Virus record (IMG/VR): IMGVR_UViG_3300017751_000146
Location: 1 to 28,945 of that record
From: a virus
Direction: 5' to 3' (one strand)
Length of the DNA: 28,945 nucleotides
In this document: one piece after another, positions 7,825-28,915 of the stretch
How the letters are laid out: each line of letters starts with the position of its first letter
Position numbering within the stretch: position 1 is the stretch's first letter
Notes under the pieces: model-generated
What the model saw: the letters and a program-made list of their open reading frames with translations, nothing else
Told to the model about the DNA's origin: nothing
Databases searched by the model: none
Program-made: the position numbers and the translations under genes

Positions 7825-9222
7825 ATGGGACTAATAAATAAAACAGCAAGAGAGTATTATGAAGGTTCTGACGGTATTCAAAATAATGGAGATGAAACTT
7901 ACAGTCAAACATACAACGCTAGTACTACTAGCTACGAGTTTATTTCTTTAGAAGATGTTATTAATCAATTTATTGTAGCTTATGTTGGAGATGGTAAAAT
8001 AATACCAACAATAAGAAGGCTTGATGTATCTTTTCATGCACAAAGAGCTTTGCAAGAATTAAGTTTTGATACTTTTAAATCTTTAAAATCACAAGAACTT
8101 ACAGTTCCACCAACGCTAACACTACCTCTTCCTCAAGATTATGTTAACTACACTAAATTATCTTGGGTTGATACTGCTGGAATAAAAAGAATTATACACC
8201 CTATTTCTAAAACATCAAACCCAATTGCTTACCAACAAGACTCTGAAGGTAAGTTAAAGTTTGAGGATAATATATATATAAGAACAAATCAAGCAGGAAC
8301 TAAAATATATACAGAGTACGGTATAACATCTAGAGACAAAGACGGTAACTATATAGGTAAAACATCAAGAAAAGGAAAATTTAAATCTGAAACTCCTTTA
8401 GAAAAATATGTTAAAGAAATTAGAGTAGACGTAACAGGTGACACAAGAGTAAACCCTGGTAACGGTAATAACAACACTAACTATCTTTTTTACGGTGGAA
8501 AAGGAGCTCTTGATATGAAAATGTTATTTCATGGAACAATTGATGGTATTGAAGTTGGCCAATCAGTTTTTGGACCAGGTATACCAGCAAATACAACTGT
8601 AGCTTCTGTGTTCGAAACTACAGGTGGTAATTATAGAGGTACTTCAATAACTATGACAAACCCAAAGTACGAGGCTGATAAGTTAAAAGAAACTCCAACA
8701 GGTATAGCCGGAAGACCTACAGGTTTTATGGTAAAAAACACTCAAGTTATAATTGTAGATTTAAACAAGCAGTCTACTAGTTGGAAAAACTACAAAGCGC
8801 ATGTAGCAAATGGAACAACTGACAGCTATGAAGATTACAGTAGATTTACTGCGGAAGGCGAAAGATATGGTATAGACCCTCAGCACGCTCAGTCTAATGG
8901 CTCTTACTACATAGACTCTAACACAGGTCTTATTCATTTTAGCTCTGTAATGTCAAATAGAACTGTTGTGATAGATTATTTAAGTGATAGTCTTGGCACT
9001 GACTCTGAAATGAAAGTTCACAAACTTGCGGAAGAAGCCATGTATAAGTGTATAGCATACTCTATAATATCTACAAGAGCTAACGTTCAAGAGTATATAG
9101 TTCGTAGATTTCAAAAAGATAAGTTTGCAGCTGTTAGAAAAGCAAAACTAAGACTATCAAATTTAAAATTAGAAGAATTAACTCAAATACTTAGAGGTAA
9201 ATCTAAACAAATAAAACACTAG
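7825..9222 (+). CDS. Head-tail connector or tail tube protein 2 with beta insert
   Basis: The 465-residue protein carries, at residues about 40-115, the wording DVINQFIVAYVGDGKIIPTI followed by HAQRALQELSFDTFKSL and LPLPQDYVNYTKLSWVD. This is a helical bundle followed by strands, as in tail-tubular (T7 gp11-like) or P22 gp4-like connectors; the match is from memory. Residues about 233-275 are a beta module (VGQSVFGPGIPANTTVASVF) that recurs in phage surface proteins and looks inserted into the connector fold. The C-terminal 100 residues return to helix (EEAMYKCIAYSIISTRANVQ) and end in a basic tail. It is three bases from its neighbours on both sides, so it is probably co-translated with them. 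Alternative: a tail tube protein without connector function. Confidence 0.72.
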   Translation: MGLINKTAREYYEGSDGIQNNGDETYSQTYNASTTSYEFISLEDVINQFIVAYVGDGKIIPTIRRLDVSFHAQRALQELSFDTFKSLKSQELTVPPTLTLPLPQDYVNYTKLSWVDTAGIKRIIHPISKTSNPIAYQQDSEGKLKFEDNIYIRTNQAGTKIYTEYGITSRDKDGNYIGKTSRKGKFKSETPLEKYVKEIRVDVTGDTRVNPGNGNNNTNYLFYGGKGALDMKMLFHGTIDGIEVGQSVFGPGIPANTTVASVFETTGGNYRGTSITMTNPKYEADKLKETPTGIAGRPTGFMVKNTQVIIVDLNKQSTSWKNYKAHVANGTTDSYEDYSRFTAEGERYGIDPQHAQSNGSYYIDSNTGLIHFSSVMSNRTVVIDYLSDSLGTDSEMKVHKLAEEAMYKCIAYSIISTRANVQEYIVRRFQKDKFAAVRKAKLRLSNLKLEELTQILRGKSKQIKH

Positions 9223-9225
9223 CAT

Positions 9226-12200
9226 ATGCCAGAGATTAAACACGTTTTTAATCAAGGTAAGATGAATAAAGACCTTGACGAAAGACTAGTACCTAATGGT
9301 GAATATAGACATGCACTAAACATACAAGTGTCTTCTTCAGACGGTTCTGATGTAGGTACTGTACAGAATTTATTAGGTAACAATAAGCTTTCAAATTTTG
9401 TAGGTTTAAACTCTAAATGCGTAGGCGCTATTTCTGATGATAAAAACAATGCTTTTTACTGGTTTATTAAAAGCCAATATATAGATTCAATAGTTGAATA
9501 TAAAAACGGTATTATAACTCCTGTAATTGTAGATACTTACCAAAATGTTTTAAAATTTACAAACAATATTATAACTGGTATAAATATTATTGACAACTTA
9601 CTTTTTTGGACAGACAATTATAATGAGCCAAAAAAAATAAATATAGATATTTGTAAACAAGGTACCGATATTAATGGCTACACTCACACAAAACTAGTTG
9701 TATCTGAAAGATTAATATCTGCAAATGACTATATAGATATTAGAGAAGAGCATATAACAGTAATAAAAAAATCTCCAAAAAAACAATTAACTTTAAATAT
9801 ATCCGCAAACAATGTAGTTGAAGGTAGTGCAGATTTAGAGTTTATGGACGTTAACTCTAACCAATACGTTGAAGGAGATATGTTTCAAGTATTAGGTATG
9901 AACTTACCCGCGGGATCTAGTTTTACCGAAGGTGGTGTTGTTTTGGTTTTGGCTTCTACAAGTACTGGTAGTTTACCTGAAAACCACGACATAAGACTTG
10001 AAGTGGTAGAAAATATTAGTGGTAAACAATCAATGGGTATTGGTGGTCAAAGCTACACGTTTCCACCACATAGCTATTGGTTTAAAGTTTTATCTACAAA
10101 CCAAAACATAACAACAAATCTAAAACTTTATTATTTTCAACAAGGTGGTAATGATGAGAAATTTTTTGATGATAAATTTGTAAGATTTAGTTATAGATAT
10201 AAATATCAAGATGGTGAATATTCTTGTTACGCACCTTTTTCAGAGCTCGCTTTTGTGCCTGATCAATTTAACTACGATACTAAAAAAGCTTACAACACTG
10301 GTATGGATAACTATTTAAGTGAGTTAGTTATATCAGGCTTTGTTGAAACAGATATTTTAGAAAATGTTATTGAAGTAGAGATAGTATATAAAGAGTCTAA
10401 CTCACCTTTAGTTTATTCTGTTGATAAAATAACTAAAACAGATTTTGATAATACAGAATATATAAATGACGGAGGTGCCATTGTTACATCAAACCACTGG
10501 AACTCTAATAGATATAAAATAACTTCTGATATTATATATGCTGTTTTACCAGCAAATCAATTGGCAAGACCTTTTGATAATGTTCCTAAAAAAGCTTTAG
10601 CACAAGAAATAACTGGTAACAGATTAGTTTACGGTAACTATGAACAAAATTATAATTTACCAAAAGCTTTAATTAGTGCTTGGAATAAACCTAGGTATGA
10701 TGTAGAGTTTGAAAATTTATTACCAAAAAAATCTTTAAAATCTTCTAGACAATATCAGCTTGGTGTTACTTACTTAGACAATTATGGTAGAGAAACTTCT
10801 GTGTTTACAAATCCAAAAGCAACTTTTAAAGTACCAAAAACACAAGCCGCTTCTTATAACTCAATCGCAACTAAGTTTACAACTGAACATCCCAGCTGGG
10901 CTAAAGGATTTAAATTTTACGTAAAAGAAACTTCTGGCGAGTTTTATAACCTTGCATTAGATAGAGTTTATGAAGCTGAAGATGGTAACTTGTGGTTATC
11001 ATTTCCTTCTTCAGAAAGAAATAAAATTGATGAAGAAACTTTTTTAGTGTTAAAAAAAGCTGTAGAAGGTAGTACCGTTATTGCAGAAGAAGCCAAGTAC
11101 AAGGTTATAGCTATTGAAAATCAAGCACCAACATTTATAAAAACATTAAAAAAAGAATTACTAAGAACAAACGGTGATCCATCGAGTAGTGTTACTAATG
11201 CAGATAATGTTATTGTACCAATAGGTGAATTTTTCTTTGATCACCAAACCCCGCAAGTAAATTCTAGAGAATTTTTAATTAAAAAAGAAGCATGGTTAAC
11301 ACCTATTAACGATGTTGAATTAGTAGATTTAACTGAAATAGCAGAACCTATATCAATTACATTTGCAGACTTAGGCGCTAATAGGTTTAGTAAAGAATAT
11401 AAAATAGCTAATATAACAACGGATAAAGATGTTACAACAGCAGCATATAATGTTATTTTAGATGATGTAATAGATGAAAGTGATGGCTGGATATATCCAG
11501 ACCTTGTAGATCCTAACTCCACAACAGCCATTACTAACAACACTGGTTTTAGCACTAGCTTAGCTATAATAATACATAAGTTTGAAATTGAAAATAGACC
11601 TGAATTTGAAGGTAGATTTTTTACAAAAATATATAGCGATGAAATTGCTAGGAAGTATATATTCTTACCTTCTTTAGACGAAAAAAATTATGAAACTTTA
11701 GCTGCTTGCCAAGCTTATTATTTTTCAGATACTTCAGCCGCTAATATGAATGGTACTACTGGAACAACAAGCTTTAGAGATGATGGCACAACAGTATTCA
11801 ATGGTGATACGACATCAGAAGGAACACAATTGATACAGTATAATTCAAACACTGATAAATATAGTGTGATTGACCAACCTTTTGCCTATATTCCAACAGG
11901 TTTAAATCAATTTCCTACTAGTGACGAAACTGAGTGGCAAGCACTGTTAGATATAGATAGTGACGGTGCTTCAGATGCTAACTTTTTTATAGATCAAGTT
12001 TATTTTAGAGGTGAAGCGCCTTTGAACTTTTTTGAAGCGTCGTCAGATAGAGATAGTGGTACTTTAGATACAACTAGTGTAGAAAAACATGGCTTAAGAT
12101 TAGTTCATGGTTATCAAGGTTCAAGTCCATACGTCACAATGGATTTTGATTGGGCGCCAGCTGTAACAGACTCTTTAATTAGAAAATTTGCTTCAGAAAA

Positions 12201-14808
12201 TGGTGGGGATAATTTTAGCCAAGGTATTTATGAAGAAAACGGGCAGTGGTATATTGAACTAGCTTTTTCAACATTAAGTAGAAACGAAATTGTTAATGAT
12301 TTTATTCCAAACAGTCAAGGTGGTATGGATGAGACACAAGTTTCTTTTGAGCCTTTACTTCCTGGTGGCATACACTTGGACGGGCTTTATCAAGACGCAA
12401 TATGGCAAGTAGACGAAATACATACTAAGTTTGTTGCTAACTTAAAATCTGGTACTATATTTACTTTTGAAGGAGATGCTAACAAAGCTTTTTACAAAAT
12501 AACTGATAATCCACAAATATTTAGAAGGTATAATCACACTAGTGCTTTTGATTGGTGGTACTCGTATTGCGAGTATATAGCTACTCCAAGTAATGTTACG
12601 GGCTTAACTAGAGGGGCAGAAGCTAAAGCTCAATTTGATAAATTTATAGCTAGTGATAACAGAAGAGTTACTTATAAAATTCCAATATCTGTATTTAACA
12701 AAGAAAGAGGTGAAATAACTGGTGAAGATGTCTTAGGTGCGAGTGATTTTAGTTCAACTGGTGCCTTGCAGGGGTTATTAAGTACAGCTACAGAAAACGC
12801 TCCTGTTAGAATAACATTTTTAAAAGAAAGATTTGATTCTAGCACAAGGTTAGCTACTGACAAACCAGCTATATTTGAAACAATGCCAAAAGAAACTGCT
12901 GAGCTAGATATTTACTACGAAGCTAGTCAAGTTTTTCCTACTTCTCTTAGTGATAAAACATTAAAGACTATTGTAGAAAAAGGCATGAAAATTACTTGTG
13001 ATAGAGTTGGTGTTATTACAGAAGAAACAGAAGTGTTGTTAATAACTAACAACTCAATAAAGTTTTCTAATGCTATGACAGATGAGGTTTTACAAACTGG
13101 TGATGTGTTTACTTTTACAGGTAAAGATGGAAGTTTTGTAAAGTTAAAGTTTAGTGCATTTCTTTCGTCAACTTTTTTAACTCCAGTGGGTCAGCAAAAT
13201 GGCTTTAACGTTTCTGAATATTTAGTTTTTAGCGAAATATATAATGAGTACGGCTTGTCATGGTTTAATTGCTATTCTTTTGGTAATGGCGTTGAGTCTA
13301 ATAGAATTAGAGATGGCTTTAACCAAGTAACTATAGATAAGGGTGTTAAAGTTTCCGCGCCTGTAGAAGATGTTTATAAACAAGAAAGAAGACTAAACGG
13401 CTTAATATATTCTGGTATTTATAATTCTACATCTGGGGTTAATAATTTAAATCAATTTATACAAGCTGAAAAAATAACTAAAGATTTAAATCCTACATAT
13501 GGTAGTGTACAAAAATTATTTAGTAGAAACACAGATTTAATTGCATTTTGCGAAGATCGTGTAATTAAAATACTAGCTAACAAAGATGCTGTGTTTAATG
13601 CCGATGGCAATCCTAATTTAACAGCTACAAACAAAGTGTTAGGTCAAGCAATGCCTTTTGCAGGTGATTACGGTATATCAAAAAACCCAGAAAGCTTTGC
13701 TAAAGAAAATTATAGAGCTTATTTTTCAGACAAACAAAGAGGTGCTGTTCTTAGATTATCAATGGACGGCTTGACGCCAATATCAGAGTATGGTATGTCT
13801 GATTACTTTTCTGATAATTTAAAACTCAACAATATATTACTAGGTAGCTTTGATGGTGATAAAAACGAATACAATTTAACATTAGACTCTACTAACGTTA
13901 CCGTTTCTTTTGACGAAAAAGTTAAAGGTTGGACAAGTTTTAAGTCTTTTGTTCCTGAGCAAGGTATCAGTATGTCAAACGACTACTATACTTTTAAGAA
14001 CGCACAAGTTTATAAACACCACGTTGAACAAGATAATTCTCAAAATCCTATAGCTAGAAATAATTTTTATGGTGATCAATATATTTCTTCTGTTGAAGTT
14101 CTTTTAAATGAACAGCCTAGTATTATTAAAAAATACAAAACACTAAACTACGAAGGTACAGATTCAAAGGTTATAAAAGAAGTTACAAATGTAAATAGTG
14201 GTTACCACAACCTAGAAGACAAACCTGGTTGGTTTTCTACTTATATAGAAACAAACGAAAACAAAGGCTATGTTAGCGAGTTTATAAAAAAAGAAGGTAA
14301 GTGGTTTAATTTTATAAAAGGAAATGATTTTGCTAGTAACCAAGAAATTGATACAAAAATGTTTACGTATCAAGGGTTAGGAAGAATAGTTAGTTTAGAT
14401 ATTGATCTTAGCCTTCATCAACAATCAATAATACCACCACCACCACCACCACCACCATCACCAACTGGAACTATTGGCTGTATGGATCCAAACGCAACAA
14501 ACTACGATCCTGCAGCGACTATAAACGATATTACTTTATGTTCTTATGTTGCTCCACCACCTCCTCCTCCACCACCAGCAAGTATTCCAGGCTGTACAGA
14601 TCCAACCGCGTTAAACTATGATCCATTAGCTACTTACAATGACGGTTCTTGTACATACCCTCCACCACCACCAATATCTGGTTGTACTAATCCAGATGCA
14701 ATAAACTATGACCCTATGGCAACTATTGATGATGGTAGTTGTATATTACCAGAACTTTACATAGAAGACATTGCTGATGATGATATAACTGGTCTTCCAA
14801 ACGTTTAA
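9226..14808 (+). CDS. Large tail stabilisation (muzzle-type) protein with C-terminal GCTDP repeats
   Basis: This 1860-residue virion protein is the largest tail component in the window. It opens with KMNKDLDERLVPNGEYRHAL and then SDVGTVQNLLGN, a signature I recall from large stabilisation or muzzle proteins of crAss-like and marine phages. A second conserved-looking core at residues about 1392-1650 contains GLIYSGIYNSTSGVNNLNQF, CEDRVIKILANKDAVFNADG and ISKNPESFAKENYRAYFSDK, probably beta-propeller-like as in P22 gp10. From residue 1737 the character changes to polyproline (8, 8 and 5 prolines) alternating with three cysteine repeats at 1751-1772, 1789-1809 and 1819-1839 (GCTDPTALNYDPLATYNDGS then C). 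This tail is probably exposed and disulfide-bonded. It starts three bases after its neighbour. The muzzle role is inferred; the repeats are directly visible. Confidence 0.8.
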   Translation: MPEIKHVFNQGKMNKDLDERLVPNGEYRHALNIQVSSSDGSDVGTVQNLLGNNKLSNFVGLNSKCVGAISDDKNNAFYWFIKSQYIDSIVEYKNGIITPVIVDTYQNVLKFTNNIITGINIIDNLLFWTDNYNEPKKINIDICKQGTDINGYTHTKLVVSERLISANDYIDIREEHITVIKKSPKKQLTLNISANNVVEGSADLEFMDVNSNQYVEGDMFQVLGMNLPAGSSFTEGGVVLVLASTSTGSLPENHDIRLEVVENISGKQSMGIGGQSYTFPPHSYWFKVLSTNQNITTNLKLYYFQQGGNDEKFFDDKFVRFSYRYKYQDGEYSCYAPFSELAFVPDQFNYDTKKAYNTGMDNYLSELVISGFVETDILENVIEVEIVYKESNSPLVYSVDKITKTDFDNTEYINDGGAIVTSNHWNSNRYKITSDIIYAVLPANQLARPFDNVPKKALAQEITGNRLVYGNYEQNYNLPKALISAWNKPRYDVEFENLLPKKSLKSSRQYQLGVTYLDNYGRETSVFTNPKATFKVPKTQAASYNSIATKFTTEHPSWAKGFKFYVKETSGEFYNLALDRVYEAEDGNLWLSFPSSERNKIDEETFLVLKKAVEGSTVIAEEAKYKVIAIENQAPTFIKTLKKELLRTNGDPSSSVTNADNVIVPIGEFFFDHQTPQVNSREFLIKKEAWLTPINDVELVDLTEIAEPISITFADLGANRFSKEYKIANITTDKDVTTAAYNVILDDVIDESDGWIYPDLVDPNSTTAITNNTGFSTSLAIIIHKFEIENRPEFEGRFFTKIYSDEIARKYIFLPSLDEKNYETLAACQAYYFSDTSAANMNGTTGTTSFRDDGTTVFNGDTTSEGTQLIQYNSNTDKYSVIDQPFAYIPTGLNQFPTSDETEWQALLDIDSDGASDANFFIDQVYFRGEAPLNFFEASSDRDSGTLDTTSVEKHGLRLVHGYQGSSPYVTMDFDWAPAVTDSLIRKFASENGGDNFSQGIYEENGQWYIELAFSTLSRNEIVNDFIPNSQGGMDETQVSFEPLLPGGIHLDGLYQDAIWQVDEIHTKFVANLKSGTIFTFEGDANKAFYKITDNPQIFRRYNHTSAFDWWYSYCEYIATPSNVTGLTRGAEAKAQFDKFIASDNRRVTYKIPISVFNKERGEITGEDVLGASDFSSTGALQGLLSTATENAPVRITFLKERFDSSTRLATDKPAIFETMPKETAELDIYYEASQVFPTSLSDKTLKTIVEKGMKITCDRVGVITEETEVLLITNNSIKFSNAMTDEVLQTGDVFTFTGKDGSFVKLKFSAFLSSTFLTPVGQQNGFNVSEYLVFSEIYNEYGLSWFNCYSFGNGVESNRIRDGFNQVTIDKGVKVSAPVEDVYKQERRLNGLIYSGIYNSTSGVNNLNQFIQAEKITKDLNPTYGSVQKLFSRNTDLIAFCEDRVIKILANKDAVFNADGNPNLTATNKVLGQAMPFAGDYGISKNPESFAKENYRAYFSDKQRGAVLRLSMDGLTPISEYGMSDYFSDNLKLNNILLGSFDGDKNEYNLTLDSTNVTVSFDEKVKGWTSFKSFVPEQGISMSNDYYTFKNAQVYKHHVEQDNSQNPIARNNFYGDQYISSVEVLLNEQPSIIKKYKTLNYEGTDSKVIKEVTNVNSGYHNLEDKPGWFSTYIETNENKGYVSEFIKKEGKWFNFIKGNDFASNQEIDTKMFTYQGLGRIVSLDIDLSLHQQSIIPPPPPPPPSPTGTIGCMDPNATNYDPAATINDITLCSYVAPPPPPPPPASIPGCTDPTALNYDPLATYNDGSCTYPPPPPISGCTNPDAINYDPMATIDDGSCILPELYIEDIADDDITGLPNV
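14434..14457 (+). repeat. (CCA)8 microsatellite encoding eight prolines
   Basis: Eight perfect CCA triplets in frame give a polyproline rod before the first cysteine repeat of the 1860-residue tail protein. A second polyproline tract of eight (14554-14577) mixes CCA and CCT, and a third has five (14659-14673). Slippage would change the rod length in whole residues without breaking the frame. Confidence 0.9.
14476..14742 (+). repeat. Three tandem GC(T)DP...NYDP...DGSC cysteine repeats
   Basis: The units encode residues 1751-1772, 1789-1809 and 1819-1839 of the large tail protein, separated by polyproline linkers, with 38- and 30-residue spacing. Each starts GC and ends with Cys about 20 residues later; the first unit is degenerate (INDITLC in place of the DGSC ending). 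This repeat is common in secreted Bacteroidetes proteins. Confidence 0.9.
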
Positions 14809-14819
14809 AAATAAAATAT

Positions 14820-16232
14820 ATGCATCAAGGTCCTAATTATAATTCTAATAACTTATATAGTGTTCAAAGAATACATGATGATAATGTCAATGCAGGTAAC
14901 TTTAGCACGACGCCATCTGGTCTTAAATATTATACACTTTTAATAACTCCAAATGACTACAGTCAACTAGTGTGTTCTGGTAACTTTACAATTGATGGTC
15001 TTTCAAGTTCTTGGGTTTATAATTCTGATTACCATCCAACTGGTAGCGGTAATGCTTGTTATCCTGTAAATCCACCATGGCACGGTAGTAGCGTTGGCCA
15101 AAGTGTAAGGCATTCAACTCCACACAGTTATATATTAAAAGGAGGCGCTGGCCCTAATGTTTGTTGGGGCCCTAATAGTAATAGTGGTCAAAATTTTATT
15201 GGCAATGGTACTTATAGGTTTAACGGTCCTTTTGAGTTCGACAACTCCGCTTACTGCGATGGAGCGTTTACAAGCTCAACAGACTCGGTAACTTGGAGAA
15301 AAATAATACTAATGGATATATACGAAAACGATCAAGGTAATTTGATAAATGATTTGTATGATCCTGCAACTTACTCAGAGAATTTAGAAACTTGGCTTCA
15401 GTATATGCCAGATCCTAACAACCCAAATTTTGTCCCATTAGAACCAACTCACAATGGTTACCCAAAACATATAAAAGTTTTTGTCTTTCCAGAGTATCAC
15501 GACGAAAACCCTTTACAGGCAACAATGGAAATTGATTTAGATATAGATTATGTAACACCTGTTCAAGGTTGTACAGATTCAGGGGCTAATAACTACGACT
15601 CTCTTGCAAGCACAAACGACGGTAGTTGTACATACCCACCACCACCACTTGCATTTCCACCTATAACAGTTAGTAGTGATATTACTTCTGCTAATCATAC
15701 TTTATACTCAGCAATGCAATTTAATGGTGGATATACAAATCCAAATGCGCTAACAGTTCTTGTTTTAGAAAATATCGTTTTTGATATTCCTATGCCAACT
15801 AACGGTACGCCTCCTTACAGTGAATACAGCATAGAATTATTAAATGATACTGTAACTGTATCTGGATCACCAACTGGTTCTGGATCGATACCCTCTGAAA
15901 TAATTCAGATTAATACTTTTGCATCTACTATTAATCCAACAGATCCATTATTATATGATGATATGCACCTTATGGACTTTACAGCTCAACTTCCCCCAGG
16001 TCCTAACTTTCCAGTTGAGCTTGACCAAGTAGGTGTTGAACCTGGAGATGGCGTTAGTACTTTTAATGCAGGAAGTTTTTATATTAACAAAGTGATTTTG
16101 TCAGTGCCGGGAACTCCTTCTAGTAGTTACTCTGTGCAAAACATTACGCTGCAAGTTTCAGCTGAAGATGCTAATGGTGATGTTGTTAATAGCTCTGTTT
16201 CAGTTGACATAGCGGCTGAACTAGGTATATAA
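14820..16232 (+). CDS. Tail surface protein with one GCTDP repeat, candidate receptor-binding protein
   Basis: I do not recognise the family of this 470-residue protein. Residues 1-245 are rich in Asn, Ser, Gly, Tyr and Pro, with scattered Cys (CYPVNPPWHG, GPNVCWGPNS, DNSAYCDGAF), suggesting a folded, exposed beta domain. Residues 250-270 are a single repeat of the type found at the end of the preceding gene (GCTDSGANNYDSLASTNDGS then C), followed by YPPPP. Residues about 285-470 are a Thr/Ser/Val-rich beta domain (ILSVPGTPSSSYSVQNITLQ) that looks like an Ig-like or adhesin fold. It starts 11 bases after the 1860-residue gene, in another frame. Sharing a repeat with that protein suggests the two are functionally paired on the tail. 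Receptor binding is an inference from composition and position. Confidence 0.6.
   Translation: MHQGPNYNSNNLYSVQRIHDDNVNAGNFSTTPSGLKYYTLLITPNDYSQLVCSGNFTIDGLSSSWVYNSDYHPTGSGNACYPVNPPWHGSSVGQSVRHSTPHSYILKGGAGPNVCWGPNSNSGQNFIGNGTYRFNGPFEFDNSAYCDGAFTSSTDSVTWRKIILMDIYENDQGNLINDLYDPATYSENLETWLQYMPDPNNPNFVPLEPTHNGYPKHIKVFVFPEYHDENPLQATMEIDLDIDYVTPVQGCTDSGANNYDSLASTNDGSCTYPPPPLAFPPITVSSDITSANHTLYSAMQFNGGYTNPNALTVLVLENIVFDIPMPTNGTPPYSEYSIELLNDTVTVSGSPTGSGSIPSEIIQINTFASTINPTDPLLYDDMHLMDFTAQLPPGPNFPVELDQVGVEPGDGVSTFNAGSFYINKVILSVPGTPSSSYSVQNITLQVSAEDANGDVVNSSVSVDIAAELGI
15567..15629 (+). repeat. Fourth GCTD...NYD...DGSC repeat, in the next tail gene
   Basis: A single unit encodes residues 250-270 of the candidate receptor-binding protein and is followed by a YPPPP linker, as in the third unit upstream. 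Its presence in a different gene and frame indicates that the module was copied between, or independently joined to, two neighbouring tail genes. Confidence 0.88.
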
Positions 16233-16249
16233 TTAAACATTAAAACAAT

Positions 16250-17545
16250 ATGATAATACAAGCATTTAACATAGACATGGGTAATAAATCTAGAAATTCT
16301 GTTTCTAGAAGTTATGAAGTTGTTGGTGAGCCAGAAGCTGTTTTTCATATTATAGTTCAAAACGCAAGTGGGCACTATTACAATTTTCCAGAAAACACTA
16401 TTATAAATCAAGAAGCAGGGATTTTTGCCCCTGCAGCAGCTTTTTCTACAACTCCAAGTAATTTATTTAACCAAAAAATACCTAGTTCTGGTGTTTATAA
16501 TGGAGCTATAACTCTTCCAGTTGATAACACTGATACTCATTATATAATAACAGTTATTGCTGGTAATGAAACAACTTTTGATTTAAATGTTTTTAGCAAT
16601 GAAAAAATTTTTATTAGCGATAAAATAAACGCTTACAACGTAACTGGAGTTACTTTTTCAATAACACACTCAAATGCCGCTGTTGTAGAGCCATCTGGAA
16701 ATAATGCTCCAATAGTTTTTAAAGGCAAAAGTAGTCAAGTTGATAGATCAAATGTAAATAACGTTACAAAAATAAACTGGCCTTTCACCTTAAGCTCTAG
16801 TTCAGCTAGTATAATAAGGCAGCCTATAGTAGATGATTTTGAATTTACAACTACAAAAACAACCCGTAACATTAGAACCACTACTGGTGCAACAACATCG
16901 ATAGAGTTGGCAGATGTAACTGGTCTTAGTGTGGGAATGGATGTTAAAGATGCAGAAGATCAAAGTTTAGGTCAAATAACTAAGATTGTACTTGGGTTTA
17001 AAGATTTTCAAAACTCAACTGACGGTAATCAAATTTATAAAATACCAATAAAAATAAACGATGATGGTGATGGTGTTGTTAATAGCACTGCTGGAACAAT
17101 AGTTGTTAGCACTGCTGTCAACTGGGGCGCTAGTGGTCAGTTAACTTTTACAGGCAAAGGCTCTTCTGCTAGTAATATTTTCAACAAAACTAGATTTAAA
17201 ATAAAAAATTTTAAAATAGAAATAGACCCTGTAGTAACAACAACAGACGCGGCGGTTTCAAATAGCACAACAATACCTGTAGCAAGTACAGATGGTATAA
17301 AAGTAGCTGACACTGTTTTAATGACTGGTATAGGTGTAACATCAACTTCACCGCACGTAGACGCTGTAAGCTCTGGTGTTAATGTAACGGTTAGCTCTGC
17401 GCAAACAATTGAAGACGGACAAACAGTAACTTTTACTGGTAGTAGTAGGTCTGGTAAAATTACTGGTGAGTTAGAAGTTTTAGAATATGGTGATAGTAAT
17501 ATAACTTTAGATTTTAATTTTGATAACATTTTAAACGTAAGCTAA
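16250..17545 (+). CDS. Beta-rich tail structural protein with two small repeat modules
   Basis: This 431-residue protein is almost entirely Thr/Ser/Asn/Val-rich, as in tail fibres and other virion surface proteins. A central block (NNVTKINWPFTLSSSSASII, residues about 170-190) looks conserved. Two related modules lie at residues about 207-235 (TTGATTSIELADVTGLSVGM) and about 328-365 (VTTTDAAVSNSTTIPVASTD). Both read as 'switch on at a strand, then GMxV' repeats, a pattern common in marine phage structural proteins. No enzyme motif is seen. The stop is one base before the next gene, so the two are probably translationally coupled. A tail fibre or baseplate-like role is inferred only from composition and from lying between the tail and ejection genes. 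Confidence 0.65.
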   Translation: MIIQAFNIDMGNKSRNSVSRSYEVVGEPEAVFHIIVQNASGHYYNFPENTIINQEAGIFAPAAAFSTTPSNLFNQKIPSSGVYNGAITLPVDNTDTHYIITVIAGNETTFDLNVFSNEKIFISDKINAYNVTGVTFSITHSNAAVVEPSGNNAPIVFKGKSSQVDRSNVNNVTKINWPFTLSSSSASIIRQPIVDDFEFTTTKTTRNIRTTTGATTSIELADVTGLSVGMDVKDAEDQSLGQITKIVLGFKDFQNSTDGNQIYKIPIKINDDGDGVVNSTAGTIVVSTAVNWGASGQLTFTGKGSSASNIFNKTRFKIKNFKIEIDPVVTTTDAAVSNSTTIPVASTDGIKVADTVLMTGIGVTSTSPHVDAVSSGVNVTVSSAQTIEDGQTVTFTGSSRSGKITGELEVLEYGDSNITLDFNFDNILNVS

Positions 17546-17546
17546 C

Positions 17547-17915
17547 ATGCAAATAAAACTAACATTTAATACCGAGCTAAACATATCTTTATCTATAGGA
17601 GACATTGTGTGGTACACTCCCGTTACTATTACTGGTGGTCATGAGGTTTCAAACACAAATTCAATAATAAAATTAGGTGAAGTTGAAAGTGTTGATCATA
17701 AAAATAAAATTGTTTTAATTAAAAAACCTCACGATCCTTTAAACTATGCTGGTATATCATTAACTCAAAATGATTTTGTAATGTTTTCTAAGCCAAACTC
17801 ATTTAACACTAGTAGTATAAAAGGTTATTATGCTAAAGTTAGATTAGATAATGATTCAACAGAAAAAATAGAACTTTTTGCGGTAAGCTCTGAAATATCA
17901 GAAAGTAGTAAATAA
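17547..17915 (+). CDS. Small virion-associated protein
   Basis: The 122-residue protein has strand-rich residues 1-75 (SIGDIVWYTPVTITGGHEVS, then IIKLGEVESVDHKNKIVLIK) resembling a small beta-barrel. Its C-terminal segment is IKGYYAKVRLDNDSTEKIEL then FAVSSEISESSK. I recall very similar endings (GYYA.V...N.S..K.ELFAV.SE..ESSK) in small structural proteins of many marine tailed phages, where no precise role is known. It begins one base after the previous gene and has no signal peptide or membrane segment. The annotation as a structural or assembly protein rests on that recalled wording and the position. Confidence 0.68.
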   Translation: MQIKLTFNTELNISLSIGDIVWYTPVTITGGHEVSNTNSIIKLGEVESVDHKNKIVLIKKPHDPLNYAGISLTQNDFVMFSKPNSFNTSSIKGYYAKVRLDNDSTEKIELFAVSSEISESSK

Positions 17916-20698: not shown

Positions 20699-23600
20699 AT
20701 GGCACAATATAAAGACGCTGACGGAGTAGCATACGAAGAATCTGATATTCGTGGTTGGGCTTTGAGAAGAGGTATTAGTTTTGAAGAATACCTTGATGTA
20801 AAAGGCTTGACTTATGACAAGATGGATTATGACGATGCTGATTTTAGCGACAAGCTAACGTCTATTGGTGCTTCTACTGCTTTAGGTTTTGTTAGTTTTG
20901 CTGAAGGATTAAGTGATTTAAAAGATGGTTTGATATATACCATGTCTACTGCCGGTGATGATTTAAACGCTAAACAAAAAGAAATAGCTATGAAGGCTGT
21001 TAAAGATAATTATGGCGGCGATCCTTTTGAAAAATATATGGAAAAGCTTGAAAAATCAAAACTTGAGTTTGACGAGCAAAGCATAACAGAAACATTTAAA
21101 GAAGGTGATTATTTTGAAGGAGGTTTTAGAGCTGTTGAAGCAGGTTTACAAAGTATGCCATCTATAATAGCAGCTGGATTTGGTGTGCCTGGATTAATAG
21201 GGTTAGCAGCATCAACTGCTGGTAGTAAATATGAAGAAGAGTTTGAGTTAACACCTGAAGAAAACGCTGGTACATTACTTTTTAACGCGGCTGGTTCTGG
21301 TGTAATTGAAGCTACTTTTGAACTTGCAACAAGAGGTCTTTTAAAAAGATCTGGTTTAGTCGCAGGTTTAGGTGGAAACGCTAACATGAAGTTAGCAGAA
21401 GAGATAGTTAGGGGTGGTGCTGCTAGTATTGTTAAAAACATTGGTAGTGGTATGGCTTCAGAAGCGGCATCAGAAGCTGCTACAGAGCTTACGTCTACAA
21501 TGTGGGATCAAGTTACTTTAGGTAAAAAAATTGATTGGGAAAGAAAAATATATGAAATAGCTGACGCTGGTATTGTTGGTGGTTTGGTGGGTGGTGTAAT
21601 GGCAGGCGCTGGTGAAGTTAATAAAAAGTCTAGAGCTTCGCAAGAAATGGCTTATGGCATACTGCAAGATAATCAAACTGGAAAACAACTAGCTGAAAAA
21701 CAAGAACAATTAGCCGCTTTAATATTAGATCAAAAAGGTACAAGACCAAAACCAAAGTCAGAAGATCCTGACGGTGAGTTTGAGCTAATAGAAGACAAAA
21801 TAAATGAAGTCTTGTATGAAATGGGTAATTTAAAACAAAGATCTATACAAGGTTTAAGAAACTTAAATAAAGATGAGTTTGATGTTTATTTTAAAAACAT
21901 TAAAAAAGCAAGGCCATTAAAGAAAATACTTGAAAGTGACAAGTCTGCAGTTATAAAAGATAGTGTTCAAAAAGAGTATGACGCTTTGATGGAAGAAAAC
22001 TTAGGCATGCTACAACAAGCTAGTGATAGAAAGTTAGATCAAAACTTAAGCGAAGCAGAAAGTAGAGCTTCACAAAGAAACGGTGAGGTAAGAGTATTTG
22101 AAAGTCAAGACGAGTATATAGAAGCTGTTAGTGGTGTTTCTGCTAAAAAAGTTTTAAATAAAGAAACTGGTAAAGAAGAGTATAGCCAAGCTTTCAAAGA
22201 AGCGGCTAGAGAGCATAGGTATAGCGATGGTAAAATAGTAGATGGTGTATCTTTTATAAACAAACAAACAGCTAAAAATTTAGGATCTGTGTCTGTTGGT
22301 TCACACGAAGTTCTTCATTCTATTATGGATAAATATGTTAGAAACGAAGATGGAACCACTAAAGATGACGCTATAGAGTTAATAGATGATATGTTGTCTG
22401 ACATGTCAAAAGGTGATAGAGCTATACTACAATCACGAATAGATAAAAACTACAGGTATAACAAAGACGGTAGTGAAAAAAATAAAAATGAATATTATGA
22501 TGAATATTTAAATGTTTTACACGATGCTATTGTTAAAAAGCAAATAACATACAATAAAAATTTTGATGCAATAGGTGGTAGGTTTAATAAAATATTTAAA
22601 AAGTTTGGTTATGGTGCTATTGACTTATCTTCAGGTAAAGGTTTATTTAATCTTATAAGAACATACACTAAAGCTATTGAAACAGGTGAAAGTACATCTG
22701 AGCTAGACGCTATAATAGAAGAGTCAAAAGGCTTTGCTATTACTGGTGAAGAATCTGGTAGAAAGTCTGTTGATTTAGGTTCAGAAGATGATGGTATACC
22801 ATTAAATGAAAAAATAGATCCGTTAACTAACAATGCTAAAACAAAAGAAGAGTTTCAAGCAGGTGGTATAAGAGGTGCTTTTGCTAAAGTATACCAAGGT
22901 ATAGTAGATGGTAGTTTTGACAGGCTTTTTGGTAGTGTTAGTGAACCTCAAAAAGAAATACAAAGAGAAAGTCTTGCTGATAGACTTATAAATTATGACC
23001 CAGCTAAATCACCTAGTCTTTTTGCTTGGATGGAAGGTAATAAGAGAAAAGGAAAACAAGGTAACGTTGAATTTGCTGCAAAAGATGCTAAAAAGAAATT
23101 AGCAAAAGATAAAGAAAAAAAGACTACAAGTCTTGACGCTAGAAAAAGAAGTAAAGATGGTGAAGTAAAGCAAGACGTAGAAGATGTTTCTGCAGATCCT
23201 GAACAACAATTAATAGCTAAAGAAAAAAGAGAACAGCAAGAAAAAATAATTAAAGCTAAACAAAAAAAGTTTGAGGCATCTTTAGGTATAAGTACTGATT
23301 TACAAAACAAAATTAAAGATGTAGTTACAAAGGTGTTTGGTGGTAAACTCCCGCCTGTAACAAGTCCTAAATACAGACAAGCATTAAAAGAAGAGTTTGT
23401 AAATGAAATAGGTAAAAAAATAGAAGAGATTTTTGGTGTAGAAGCTAACTATGATAACTTTATAGAAAATTATTTTGAAGATGTTATATTTCCAAACTTA
23501 TCAAATGCTAGATTAATACAAATAGAAAGACTTTTACCAAAAGGTGAAAAAATATTTGTAAGCAAAAGAAGAATAACAAAAGTTAAAGAAGTTAGAAAGC

Positions 23601-26600
23601 TACAAGAGCAAGGCTTAATAGATAAAAAAGTTAAACCAGCAAGCGGACCAAACCTTGTGCAGAAAATGAAGCTTAACATGAATAAAGTTAAAGACTTTTT
23701 TAATCCGCCAGAAATAAATCCTAAAACGGGTAAAAAAAGTGGTTTAAGAGGCACTAGAAAAAGAGCTTTAGCAGAGGCAATAGCAGAAGAGCTAGCGTTT
23801 AATCAAGTGCAAGAGGTTTTAAACAGTGAAGATGTTTTAAACAAGGTTGAGCAATTAAACGAGCTTTTTGAATATGACAAAGTTGATAACTACAAAGCAG
23901 AAGTAGTTAGACAAATGGAAAGAGGTGGTAGAAACTCTAATAGCTTAAATGATTTTATGAAAGTTCAAGACGTTTCGCCAGAAGCATTAATGAAATTACT
24001 TAGTGAAAAAGCTATAATTTTAGAAAATGAAAACAATGAGCTTTATAATGTTTTAAAAAACGATGCAGAGGAAAAGTATGGCGGTGAACAAGAATATATA
24101 GATAATCAAGGTTTTTTATCAAGACTTGCTGAAAATATAGATAATCCTGCGGTTCAAAAGTTTTTAAAAGACAAAGACTACATGTTACGTAAAGTAGTGA
24201 ACGGTAAAAAAGTTTACAACGAAGAAGGTGCTGTAGATCATGTAGACAACTACAATATACCTTTACTTGGTTTTATGCCAGCTTGGATGGGACAAAGAGA
24301 TCTACGTATGCAAAAGAACAAAAAAGGTAAACATATGTTCTTGCATAGAGCTGCTAAAATGGATAGTAGTAGAGGTGCTTTTGGTGGTTTACTTGCTTTA
24401 AGAAAGCAAAATATGGGTAGGTGGAAAAACGCTTTGCTTACTAAAATGGGCTTAAACAAAGGTATGTCTAAGCAGACTAAAAGACTTTGGGCTGAGTTTA
24501 GAAAAGTAGAGGGTGATTTAGAGCTTATGGAATCTTCAATGAACGAGCCTGGTGGAGTATTAAGAAGAGTTAAAGAAGTTCAAAAAATGAACAAAACTGC
24601 TAAAGAGAAAGCAGAAATACTTAGAAAAGAATTTAATCCAAAAGCTTTAGCAGCTGCGCAAGCATTGTTTAAAGCTTATAACTCAAGTATTCAAGACTGG
24701 GTGAATACACAAGTTAGTTCTGGTAAAATGACTAGAGAAGAAGCTATAGGTTATGTTATTAGAGACAAGCAGATGAACACTAACTTTAACAAAGGTGAAA
24801 GAGCTTTAGCCGCTTTAACCTCTGTATATCTAGTTGACGGTCCACAAAAAGTTAGCAAGCAAAAAGGAGAGCACATGGTTGACTCTGCTACAGTTTCTGC
24901 TGCTACGGTAGTGAGTATATATAATAATACTTTTTTACAAGATGCAGACAACATATTAAAAGGTTTTGAACAAGCTTTATTACCTAAAGAAGTAGCTGAT
25001 AGATTAGACAAGCTAGGTGGTAGAAACAGTCCATTAGGTAATTTCAGGTTTTTAATGGACCCTGTAATTGGTAAAAGTGTATATGATTTAGCTAGTGGTA
25101 GAACCATGTATGATGTTATGATTGATCAACATGGAAGAGATCTTGCTAATGCGGTTAAAAATGTTCACGACTTTAGTAGAGCTAGCAATAGTTTAAATAA
25201 AATTTATAAAGCAGAGCAGTTTCAGCTTGATCCAAGCAGTCCTGTAAGAGGTATGAGCGTTTTTGATTTTGACGAAACAGCTGGTATAAGCGATAATTTT
25301 ATTACAGCAACTAAAAACGGTATTGTAAAAACAATAGATTCAGCTGATTGGCCACTAGTTGGTGATGCAATGGTAAAAGATGGTTGGTCAATGGACTTTA
25401 CTGATTTTAATAAAGTTACAAATGGTAGACCAGGACCTTTAATGCAAAAGCTAAAAAATCAAATTAAAAAGTATGGTGCTGAAAACGTATTTATATTAAC
25501 AGCTAGAGCTAAAGAAAGCGCACCGGCAATACACGCATACTTAAAAAGTGAAGGTATTAATCTACCAATAGAAAATATAACGGGCTTAGGACAAAGTAGT
25601 GGTGAAGCTAAAGCTGATTGGTTTGTTGATAAGTTAGCAGAAGGTTATAATGACATTTATTTTGTTGATGACGCTATGCCTAACGTTAAAGCTGTTGACG
25701 ACTTACTAAGTCAGTTTGATATTAAGTCAAAAGTTGTACAAGCTAGAGCTAGAAACAGCAACAGTTTATACGATCAAGTAAATGAAATGCTTGAAATTAA
25801 TGAAGGTATAGGTAGAAATGTTGTTGTTGACGAAGCTTCGGCTAAAGTTGAAGGTGCTAAAAAAGGTAAAGGTATAGGAGCTAGATTTTTTAATGTGCCA
25901 GGAGCAAACGACTTTATGGGGCTAATGTACACTATAGCTAATGCAAAAGGTAAACTTGGTGAATCTCAAATAGCTTTTTTTGAAAACAACTTATATAGAC
26001 CTTATAGACAAGGTGTAGATAGAATAAATAGGTTAAAACAAGGCGTTTCTAACAACTACAAAGCTTTACTAAAATCTATACCTGGTGCAGCTAGTTTGTT
26101 AAAAGAAACAGTACCTGGCACAAGCTTTACATATGACACTGCTGTTAGAGTTTATTTATATAACAAAGCTGGTTACGAAGTGCCTGGTATGAGCTCTGAA
26201 AACGTACAAAAATTAGTTGAAGCTGTAGAAGCTAATAATGATCTGCTAACTTTAGCTAGTGGTGTTAATGCCATTGTTGGTAATTCAGATGGTAATTACA
26301 TGCAACCTGATAACGACTGGTTAGGCAGCACTATATTATCTGATTTAGATGCTTTAACAAATGATGTTGGTAGAAAACAACACATACAAGAGTTTATAGA
26401 AAATAGAAAAAAGATGTTTGGCGACTGGAAAAACGGTAAACTTGATGGACCTTTAATGAAAAAGCTAGAAGCTTTGTATGGGCCTGATTATGTTGACGCT
26501 TTAAATGATGTGTTGTGGCGTATGGAAAATGGTAACGCTAGACCAGCAGGTACTAGCAAGCAAGTAAACCAATGGCTTAACTGGCTGCAAGGTTCTATTG

Positions 26601-27835
26601 GTGCTATTATGTTTTTTAACACTAGATCAGCTATACTACAAACATTATCAACATTTAACTTTATAAATTGGGGCGATAACAACCCTATCAAAGCTGCTAA
26701 AGCATATGCTAATCAAAAGCAGTTTTGGAAAGACTTTGTAATGATATTTAACTCTGACTTTCTTAAACAAAGAAGAGGTGGTTTAAAACTTGATGTAAAC
26801 GAAGCTGCTTTAGCAAAAGCAATAAACCAAGGTGGTCAAAGTAAAGTAAAAGCTGCTTTAGCTTATTTGTTAAGAATAGGATTTTTACCTACTCAAATGG
26901 CTGATAGTTTTGCTATTGCTGCTGGTGGTGCTGCGTTTTACAGAAACAGAGTAGATACGTACTTAAGTCAAGGTATGTCAAAGGCAGATGCTGAAGCAAA
27001 AGCTTTTCAAGATATGCAAGACGCTTCTGAACCAGTTCAGCAGTCTTCTGATCCATCACTTATATCACCACAACAAGCTAGTATATTAGGTAGAATGCTT
27101 TTAGCTTTTCAAAATGTAACAATGCAATACACCAGACGTATGAAAAAAGCTGTTATTGATTTGGCTAAAGGTAGAGGTGATTTTAAAACAAATGTATCTC
27201 GTATAGTTTACTATGGCGCTGTACAAAATTTAGTGTTTAACGCATTGCAATCAGCATTGTTTGCTTTAGCTTTTGATGATGAAGAAGATGAAGTAAAAAT
27301 TAGAAGAAGAGATAGAGTTGCAAATGGTATGGTAGATTCTATTTTAAGAGGTTTAGGTATACCAGGCGCTGTGTTTGCTACAGGTAAAAATGCTATATTA
27401 GAATACGCAAAGCAAAATAAAAAAGGTTGGAACTCTAATCAAACATACACACTGCTACAGCTATTAAACATTTCACCGCCAATAGGTAGTAAGGCTAGAA
27501 AAATATACTCATCTTTTCAAACAGAAAAATTTAACAGTAAAGTTATACCTGAGATGTCACTTTGGAATTTAAGTAACCCAAGGTATCAGTCAATAGGTAA
27601 TGTTGTTGAAGGTATTTTTAACGTACCTATGGGTAGAACAATTAATAAAATAAACAACATTAAGCAAGCTTTAGATTCTGAAAATGATACTTGGCAAAGA
27701 ATAGCTTTAATGTTAGGTTGGAACACTTGGGATCTTGGCGTTAAAGACAAAGAGATACAGAGAATAAAAGATGAAGTAAAAGGAAACAAAAAAACTAACA
27801 AAAGTAAAAAATCGTTTAGTAAAAAACAATTTTAA
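20699..27835 (+). CDS. Giant injected polyvalent protein: metallopeptidase-like and HAD phosphatase domains
   Basis: At 2378 residues this gene takes a quarter of the window. In order: a helical N-terminus with two Gly-rich hydrophobic patches (about 158-175 and 291-306, GIVGGLVGGVMAGAG); an HExxH site at H536-E537-V-L-H540 with a candidate third zinc ligand at E602; a Lys/Glu-rich coil (about 780-870); conserved-looking helical blocks (about 870-970); a HAD domain at about 1518-1672 with all four motifs (D1523-F-D1525-E-T1527, T1601, K1638, D1657-D1658); and from about 1700 a C-terminal region with QQSSDPSLISPQQASILGRM and a hydrophobic helix (2175-2192), resembling large polyvalent-protein-associated domains (LPD38-like). 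The family is known to be carried in virions and delivered into hosts. HAD substrates may be nucleic acid ends or phosphoproteins; this is not established. Confidence 0.8.
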   Translation: MAQYKDADGVAYEESDIRGWALRRGISFEEYLDVKGLTYDKMDYDDADFSDKLTSIGASTALGFVSFAEGLSDLKDGLIYTMSTAGDDLNAKQKEIAMKAVKDNYGGDPFEKYMEKLEKSKLEFDEQSITETFKEGDYFEGGFRAVEAGLQSMPSIIAAGFGVPGLIGLAASTAGSKYEEEFELTPEENAGTLLFNAAGSGVIEATFELATRGLLKRSGLVAGLGGNANMKLAEEIVRGGAASIVKNIGSGMASEAASEAATELTSTMWDQVTLGKKIDWERKIYEIADAGIVGGLVGGVMAGAGEVNKKSRASQEMAYGILQDNQTGKQLAEKQEQLAALILDQKGTRPKPKSEDPDGEFELIEDKINEVLYEMGNLKQRSIQGLRNLNKDEFDVYFKNIKKARPLKKILESDKSAVIKDSVQKEYDALMEENLGMLQQASDRKLDQNLSEAESRASQRNGEVRVFESQDEYIEAVSGVSAKKVLNKETGKEEYSQAFKEAAREHRYSDGKIVDGVSFINKQTAKNLGSVSVGSHEVLHSIMDKYVRNEDGTTKDDAIELIDDMLSDMSKGDRAILQSRIDKNYRYNKDGSEKNKNEYYDEYLNVLHDAIVKKQITYNKNFDAIGGRFNKIFKKFGYGAIDLSSGKGLFNLIRTYTKAIETGESTSELDAIIEESKGFAITGEESGRKSVDLGSEDDGIPLNEKIDPLTNNAKTKEEFQAGGIRGAFAKVYQGIVDGSFDRLFGSVSEPQKEIQRESLADRLINYDPAKSPSLFAWMEGNKRKGKQGNVEFAAKDAKKKLAKDKEKKTTSLDARKRSKDGEVKQDVEDVSADPEQQLIAKEKREQQEKIIKAKQKKFEASLGISTDLQNKIKDVVTKVFGGKLPPVTSPKYRQALKEEFVNEIGKKIEEIFGVEANYDNFIENYFEDVIFPNLSNARLIQIERLLPKGEKIFVSKRRITKVKEVRKLQEQGLIDKKVKPASGPNLVQKMKLNMNKVKDFFNPPEINPKTGKKSGLRGTRKRALAEAIAEELAFNQVQEVLNSEDVLNKVEQLNELFEYDKVDNYKAEVVRQMERGGRNSNSLNDFMKVQDVSPEALMKLLSEKAIILENENNELYNVLKNDAEEKYGGEQEYIDNQGFLSRLAENIDNPAVQKFLKDKDYMLRKVVNGKKVYNEEGAVDHVDNYNIPLLGFMPAWMGQRDLRMQKNKKGKHMFLHRAAKMDSSRGAFGGLLALRKQNMGRWKNALLTKMGLNKGMSKQTKRLWAEFRKVEGDLELMESSMNEPGGVLRRVKEVQKMNKTAKEKAEILRKEFNPKALAAAQALFKAYNSSIQDWVNTQVSSGKMTREEAIGYVIRDKQMNTNFNKGERALAALTSVYLVDGPQKVSKQKGEHMVDSATVSAATVVSIYNNTFLQDADNILKGFEQALLPKEVADRLDKLGGRNSPLGNFRFLMDPVIGKSVYDLASGRTMYDVMIDQHGRDLANAVKNVHDFSRASNSLNKIYKAEQFQLDPSSPVRGMSVFDFDETAGISDNFITATKNGIVKTIDSADWPLVGDAMVKDGWSMDFTDFNKVTNGRPGPLMQKLKNQIKKYGAENVFILTARAKESAPAIHAYLKSEGINLPIENITGLGQSSGEAKADWFVDKLAEGYNDIYFVDDAMPNVKAVDDLLSQFDIKSKVVQARARNSNSLYDQVNEMLEINEGIGRNVVVDEASAKVEGAKKGKGIGARFFNVPGANDFMGLMYTIANAKGKLGESQIAFFENNLYRPYRQGVDRINRLKQGVSNNYKALLKSIPGAASLLKETVPGTSFTYDTAVRVYLYNKAGYEVPGMSSENVQKLVEAVEANNDLLTLASGVNAIVGNSDGNYMQPDNDWLGSTILSDLDALTNDVGRKQHIQEFIENRKKMFGDWKNGKLDGPLMKKLEALYGPDYVDALNDVLWRMENGNARPAGTSKQVNQWLNWLQGSIGAIMFFNTRSAILQTLSTFNFINWGDNNPIKAAKAYANQKQFWKDFVMIFNSDFLKQRRGGLKLDVNEAALAKAINQGGQSKVKAALAYLLRIGFLPTQMADSFAIAAGGAAFYRNRVDTYLSQGMSKADAEAKAFQDMQDASEPVQQSSDPSLISPQQASILGRMLLAFQNVTMQYTRRMKKAVIDLAKGRGDFKTNVSRIVYYGAVQNLVFNALQSALFALAFDDEEDEVKIRRRDRVANGMVDSILRGLGIPGAVFATGKNAILEYAKQNKKGWNSNQTYTLLQLLNISPPIGSKARKIYSSFQTEKFNSKVIPEMSLWNLSNPRYQSIGNVVEGIFNVPMGRTINKINNIKQALDSENDTWQRIALMLGWNTWDLGVKDKEIQRIKDEVKGNKKTNKSKKSFSKKQF

Positions 27836-28915
27836 ATGAAAAAACTAATAATAATACTATTAACAACTTTAATTGCATGTGCTGCGCCAAAAGAGTGTTG
27901 CTCACAAAACTTTAAAAAGTATTTTAAATTTGCTACGTTTTATGCTGCGGCTAACGGTGGTAATTCAGTTTCAGATGTAGATGTATTTTCTGTAACCAAT
28001 GGTTTAGAAACTGTAACGGTAGAAACACCATATGATTACAACTTAGCTTTAGGTATACGTAAAATAGCTAGGTTTGGTTATGAAAACAGAGCTAGTACAT
28101 TTTATGATGGTACAGAGGAGTCATGGTCAGACGGTGCTAGTATTGGTAAAGTACGTGGTTTAGAATTTTTATTTGAAGTAGATTACAAAAGACAACAAGG
28201 TAACGAATATTTAGACCAGCATCACTTTATAAGATTTGTTGGCGATGATGGTTGTGGTGAAAAATTTTGTTTAAAACATTTCATACTAAAAGGTGAATAC
28301 TTAGAAGATGGTTTTGCTGATATTAAATATGTTGAAACGTCAGAAAGATATAGATATAAAGTTAATGACAAATTGTCCTTTAATGCTGGGCTTGCTCAAA
28401 GGTTATCCGAACCGTACGGATATGACCCCTTGGCAGAGTGGATGCTAAGCAATGGCAATATACATTACACTTATCTAGCACTACAAGAAGGCTACAATGT
28501 CGATGTAGCTGCTAGTGAGTATTTTTCTCCAGATGGAGAACTCGTTGCTACAAGCAAAGAGGTTTGGGAAGAGGTTGTTATACCTACAATGTTAGCTGAT
28601 TATACTGAAAGAAAACGTAATGAATTAAACCAAATAATACAACACTCTGTTGTTCTAGGTTTTGATTACTATCATTATACAAAATCATTTTGGTCGCATG
28701 CTTGGGCTAACTTAATGCCTTGGCATTATAATGATAGCGGTGAGTTTTCTTATCACACTTATAATGGTGGTCAATGGTTAGATTACAATGGTGGTTTAAT
28801 ACTTGGTTACAAGATGAATAAATCTTTAGGTGCATTTGTAGAGGGTAAATATAACAAATACTGGAATCGTGAGTGGTATGACTTTAAATTTGGAGTAAAC
28901 TACGTAATCTTTTAA
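27836..28915 (+). CDS. Secreted outer-membrane beta-barrel-like protein or lipoprotein
   Basis: The 359-residue product starts with a signal peptide: two Lys, a hydrophobic run (LIIILLTTLIA), then either a lipobox L12-I-A-C15 or a type I cut after SQ at 23-24, the Bacteroidetes-favoured ending. The mature protein shows alternating polar and aromatic strands, most clearly at the C-terminus (GGLILGYKMNKSLGAFVEGK, then YDFKFGVNYVIF). It ends in Phe, the usual signal for the BAM barrel-insertion machinery. Residues about 190-270 are helical and may form a loop or plug. It starts immediately after the giant gene (TAA directly followed by ATG), so it is translationally coupled. It could alter the host surface (for example superinfection exclusion), or be a virion protein. 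The envelope location is well supported; the role is open. Confidence 0.72.
   Translation: MKKLIIILLTTLIACAAPKECCSQNFKKYFKFATFYAAANGGNSVSDVDVFSVTNGLETVTVETPYDYNLALGIRKIARFGYENRASTFYDGTEESWSDGASIGKVRGLEFLFEVDYKRQQGNEYLDQHHFIRFVGDDGCGEKFCLKHFILKGEYLEDGFADIKYVETSERYRYKVNDKLSFNAGLAQRLSEPYGYDPLAEWMLSNGNIHYTYLALQEGYNVDVAASEYFSPDGELVATSKEVWEEVVIPTMLADYTERKRNELNQIIQHSVVLGFDYYHYTKSFWSHAWANLMPWHYNDSGEFSYHTYNGGQWLDYNGGLILGYKMNKSLGAFVEGKYNKYWNREWYDFKFGVNYVIF

Follow-up and report, generated by a model that had tools for sequence, protein, structure and literature searches.

The window analysed here is a 28,945-base IMG/VR virus record of a marine phage, the hosts of which are likely Bacteroidota. Up to position 9222 its genes match PHROGs for terminase, portal and further proteins of the head, of packaging or of the virion structure. 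The gene that comes next (9226–14808, plus strand) encodes a protein of 1860 amino acids, which the earlier note had called a large tail protein and which, judged by its family matches, is the muzzle (distal tail) protein of a crAss-type tail. Residues 1611–1699 match the muzzle C-terminal domain PF25729 (E 3.3e-7; 31.1 bits against a gathering score of 27), the protein also matches phrog_14478, and residues 1 to about 1735 form a conserved core whose profile was followed across 79 loci. Its named relatives, with 34–35% identity, are from Cellulophaga phi38:1-like and Flavobacterium elemo phages, the nearest being phi38:1 (Pervagoviridae in the record taxonomy) and Elemovirus. A nozzle-like propeller and the crass fold were described for phiCrAss001, and the placement of a muzzle at the tail tip follows the same work (PMC10172136). 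Since the 1860-aa protein is identified as a muzzle, the array of units at its end would sit on the predicted tail tip. Near the end of the window, the 2378-aa protein (20699–27835) gave no significant Pfam or PHROG match, and the 359-aa protein (27836–28915), which has a signal-peptide-like N-terminus (MKKLIIILLTTLIACA), gave no family match.

The core is followed by polyproline runs, encoded mostly by CCA, and by units of about 23 residues with the pattern GC.D..A.NYD..A...DGSC and two conserved cysteines. Eight prolines encoded by CCA repeats (residues 1737–1744; 14434–14457) open this added tail, and the sharp break noticed earlier at residue 1737 is real in that the match to the conserved core profile stops close to it. 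Unit 1, a degenerate copy (GCMDPNATNYDPAATINDITLCSY; residues 1751–1774; 14476–14547), is followed by a second run of eight prolines (residues 1777–1784; 14554–14577), unit 2 (residues 1789–1811; 14590–14658), a third run of five prolines (residues 1812–1816; 14659–14673), unit 3 (residues 1819–1841; 14680–14748) and an acidic C-terminal peptide (LPELYIEDIADDDITGLPNV) with the stop codon (14749–14808). Unit 4, supported by alignment, lies mid-way in the 470-aa product of the next gene (residues 250–272; 15567–15635) and is followed by PPPP (residues 273–276; 15636–15647); all these features are on the plus strand. The four units alternating with polyproline on two proteins, as first reported, were confirmed and are precisely three at the end of the muzzle (residues 1751–1841) and one in the next protein. 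Units 1 to 4 scored 25.7, 45.0, 38.1 and 40.6 bits, respectively, with a profile trained partly on these very units, although hundreds of independent sequences contain the motif too; shuffled versions of the two unit regions (2000 each) scored 7.2 bits at most. The four units are 43–74% alike in protein and 57–68% in DNA, and hence are not fresh duplications.

The 470-aa protein encoded by the next gene (14820–16232, plus strand) is an accessory protein with family members in four of the eight closest viruses; Pfam, PHROG and NCBIfam searches assigned no family to it. In the alignment, a conserved N-domain (residues 1–249) is joined to a variable C-domain through a unit and a proline run. The N-domain is clearly related to the N-domain of L019. 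Its assignment to a family of domains of about 120 amino acids was weak (23% probability in a strict test) and is regarded as suggestive. The C-terminal half (15648–16229, plus strand), a candidate host-contacting part, is without a clear homologue, and phmmer gave no match to it beyond the window; its similarity to the muzzle tail of L120 (E 4e-4) came from a comparison picked by eye and is likewise treated as suggestive. The AF2 model of the 470-aa protein was poor (pLDDT 38) and was set aside. Further downstream on the plus strand lie the genes of a 431-aa protein (gp3; 16250–17545), which directly follows the muzzle in relatives without the accessory gene, and of a 122-aa protein (gp4; 17547–17915). 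In the cultured relatives phi38:1 (gp097) and elemoA (gp25), a gp4 homologue follows the core in one chain as the C-terminal domain of the muzzle, and the same fusion was found in L053, L067, L069 and L070. A separate domain of about 120 amino acids, which in many relatives starts the product of the next gene, is fused straight behind the core in L038, L044, L045, L048 and L054. By the usual reasoning from gene fusions, products of this slot likely sit on the muzzle. Together, these gene arrangements show a module-insertion site of the muzzle gene, a slot which holds the units and the next gene and which is newly described in this analysis.

The 79 muzzle loci were fetched by core patterns and thus blind to the repeats. 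Units were found in 18 of them, so the repeats are not shared by all homologues; it was their presence in all distant homologues that the earlier note had named as counting against recent capture. All units fall within the muzzle or its adjacent gene, at a spacing of −3 to +14 bases between the two genes. Seven members of the window's own group of eight carry units and the muzzle of the remaining one (L008) stops at the core, while a few relatives (L029, L091 and L101) have units within the core region. Complete homologues lose their match to the core profile at about profile position 1715–1725; roughly half of them end no more than 40 residues from that point and the others carry tails. This bears out the earlier suggestion of a module added at the C-terminus, since many relatives end at the core; the accompanying expectation that homologues lacking the repeats end near residue 1735 holds for many of them, not for all. 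The tree of 66 cores showed at least five changes of unit status on starred (well-supported) branches, in what is a quick tree with L024 and the L026/L091 pair on long branches. The units are an optional, recurrent module of the muzzle and next-gene slot.

Acidic peptides similar to that at the end of the window's muzzle (such as LTIEDLNDDD) end the muzzle in separate lineages (L004, L005, L019, L084–L086 and L090), often where an extra gene follows. The association of such an end with an extra next gene gave a Fisher p of 9e-4 under a definition made after looking; it was lost when the tree was controlled for (two to four independent pairs against none, median p 0.125, not significant). The acidic end as a docking motif was therefore set aside, and the peptide is kept as a lead, a candidate docking peptide.

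Units 2 and 3 were modelled with AF2 from an input which also contained 39 other two-unit segments. The pLDDT averaged 88.5 and exceeded 93 across most of the unit region; the overall pTM was 0.47 and the linkers were flexible. A Foldseek search of the PDB with the unit model returned only three entries, all of them MPEG-1/perforin-2; the top one superposed at 0.6 Å over 24 residues with E 1.9, and E values above 1 are to be expected for 24 residues. VIA-align found no match of the unit model at Z 2 or more. Perforin-2 was also found, independently, in the PDB with a 23-row unit profile (6u23, residues 332–353, E 6.9e-6), which aligned over profile positions 1–22 including both cysteines; a search with a single sequence returned nothing. 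In perforin-2 the MACPF and P2 domains are hinged by an EGF-like module (PMC6989145), described elsewhere as a small folded linker (PMC7593815), and the matched segment was assigned to this hinge because of its position between the two domains. The unit itself is not a true EGF domain with six cysteines and three disulfides: it has two conserved cysteines and no Pfam EGF match. No Pfam, PHROG or NCBIfam model matched the unit, and a text search of the literature for the motif gave letter-string matches only, in a few papers unrelated by title and abstract.

Outside the muzzle loci, a genome scan found units mostly in Flavobacteriales, and also in Poseidonia and other archaea, Neomarinimicrobiota, CPR bacteria, Pelolinea and Pseudoalteromonas. 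In the census, made at E 1e-6, all 61 genomes of one Flavobacteriales family carried units (16 to over 140 copies each), as did 14 of 198 genomes from the phylum of a Flavobacteriales centre, 16 of 97 from the phylum of a Poseidonia centre and one of 200, the centre itself, from the phylum of a Pseudoalteromonas centre. The Flavobacteriales protein L197 has 11 units and a T9SS C-terminal sorting domain, and many other unit proteins of this order have similar ends. In the archaeal L215, an amylase-type domain is followed by three units and a hydrophobic C-terminal stretch. Among 50,697 phage records, recognisable units occurred only in cyanophages and one marine virus, and those of the unit-bearing genes that are annotated are structural genes of the tail-fibre cluster. 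Thus the earlier description of the unit as typical of secreted Bacteroidetes proteins stands as regards their T9SS signals and the abundance of units in Flavobacteriales; exclusive to this group the unit is not, given the archaea, other bacterial phyla, cyanophages and human perforin-2. Absence of the repeats from Bacteroidetes proteins, the second point that the note had named against its proposal, is contradicted by these counts. The T9SS sorting domain (PF18962, TIGR04183, PF13585) was sought in the two unit-bearing window proteins as well; Pfam gave no such match in either of them, nor did NCBIfam in the muzzle.

Some viral-classed contigs encode proteins with 7–33 units and a T9SS-type C-terminal domain (L143, 4288–7299; L125, 4051–7062; L123, 3652–8079; L118, 4408–6543). 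For neighbouring genes on L143 and L114, the matches were DUF5824 or phage families without known function. The four contigs represent either phage-encoded T9SS cargo or stretches of host DNA. In a unit-rich Flavobacteriales genome (G690 contig C67, 1–16148; L248), a TonB-dependent receptor gene has as its neighbours, on the opposite strand, phage genes of the muzzle type and a gene for an M15 peptidase, an arrangement which may reflect integration, a chimera or a phage-borne receptor.

The earlier proposal of a recent capture of the repeats from a host is not supported by these data. GC at third codon positions is core-like in the tail (0.16 vs 0.19 in the core) and gives no composition signal, the raw GC rise in the tail coming largely from proline codons; moreover, unit status changed repeatedly on the tree, and the unit is shared by archaea, other bacterial phyla, cyanophages and an animal protein. 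The window units are equally close to host units and to other phage units. An exchange of units with hosts is plausible; its direction cannot be told from 23 residues.

We consider it probable, at about 55%, that the units are hinge beads of a jointed stalk for exchangeable parts of the tail tip. Each unit would be a 23-residue microdomain, its two cysteines most likely disulfide-bonded, and would form one bead of an extended, jointed stalk in which the polyproline rods are further spacers. Three beads would lengthen the distal end of the muzzle and one would join the two halves of the 470-aa protein, which may be docked at the muzzle tip. Such a stalk could let the 470-aa protein reach through surface layers and reorient, its variable C-terminal half being the putative host-contacting part. 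This is consistent with unit 4 parting the conserved N-domain from the variable C-domain, with the confinement of units to the slot in 18 of 79 loci, with the fusions found there in cis and trans, and with the confident AF2 model of the unit, whose only solved profile match is the perforin-2 hinge. Because the unit commonly sits at a joint, either from one domain to another or from a domain to the end of it, we read it as a compact hinge bead. On the other side, the structural comparisons are weak (Foldseek E 1.9, VIA-align Z below 2), the muzzle array of the window is closed by a short acidic peptide instead of a folded tip domain, the array occurs in L010 without the accessory gene, and the AF2 model of the 470-aa protein is poor.

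A less probable explanation is that the units themselves bind a surface glycan, or a divalent metal organising a glycan-binding surface, and that the array gives avidity. The Asp/Asn and DDGS positions are conserved, units occur on secreted proteins, one of them of glycoside-hydrolase type, and there are up to 33 copies in one protein. However, the family searches gave no carbohydrate-binding match, and the perforin-2 papers searched call the matching module a hinge or linker, calcium being unmentioned in two of them. Direct binding of polysaccharide or metal, as put forward in the earlier note, is unsupported here, with an inter-domain hinge as the only solved match and the unit often standing elsewhere between a functional domain and an anchor. 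Still less probable is that the units are mainly a genetic seam, low-complexity and repeat DNA for swapping or losing tip domains, with little function of their own. They do mark the border of conserved and variable parts, (CCA)n tracts are prone to slippage and the slot was rebuilt repeatedly, but unit residues are strongly constrained, and units 57–68% alike in DNA are poor substrates for homologous exchange. The least probable reading is a homotypic or mimicry contact, in which phage units pack against matching arrays on secreted surface proteins of the host and unit gain or loss would track host surface architecture: Flavobacteriales hosts are unit-rich and the sole muzzle homologue in 399 Flavobacteriales genomes lies in a unit-rich one, but 180 of 199 sampled genomes of the order have units, which makes this co-occurrence a weak host link, and the flexible linkers of the modelled tandem (pTM 0.47) indicate no packing.

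With hinge beads as the preferred reading, the muzzle, the gate of crAss-type tails, may be seen as a platform on which tip modules, fused or encoded by neighbouring genes, are gained and shed along a single fixed seam. The microdomain recurs at domain joints in phage tails, in secreted proteins of Bacteroidota and archaea and in the perforin-2 hinge, and its hinge function can therefore be tested on the 23-residue unit. For uncultured phages, units on the tail may in addition be of use in host prediction.

The window muzzle shares its C-terminal domain with phiCrAss001 gp44 (PF25729), and the tail gene likewise stands in a structural cassette; it differs from gp44 by the added tail of units and polyproline, in place of which the muzzles of phi38:1 and elemo phages carry the gp4-type domain. 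The T9SS arrays of Flavobacteriales (e.g. L197) contain the matching unit in tandem, 24–27 residues apart, whereas the phage arrays lack their sorting domain and are spaced by polyproline. In the T4-like cyanophages, S-H9-2 gp134 and S-CAM4 gp233 are structural proteins encoded in the tail-fibre cluster, with one unit each, although phage and protein are unrelated to those described here and the host phylum is different. The EGF-like hinge of perforin-2/MPEG1 resembles the unit in its end-to-end profile match and its location between two domains, and perhaps in its local fold, to judge from the weakly scored superposition; it is present there in a single copy, in an animal pore-forming protein which is otherwise unrelated.
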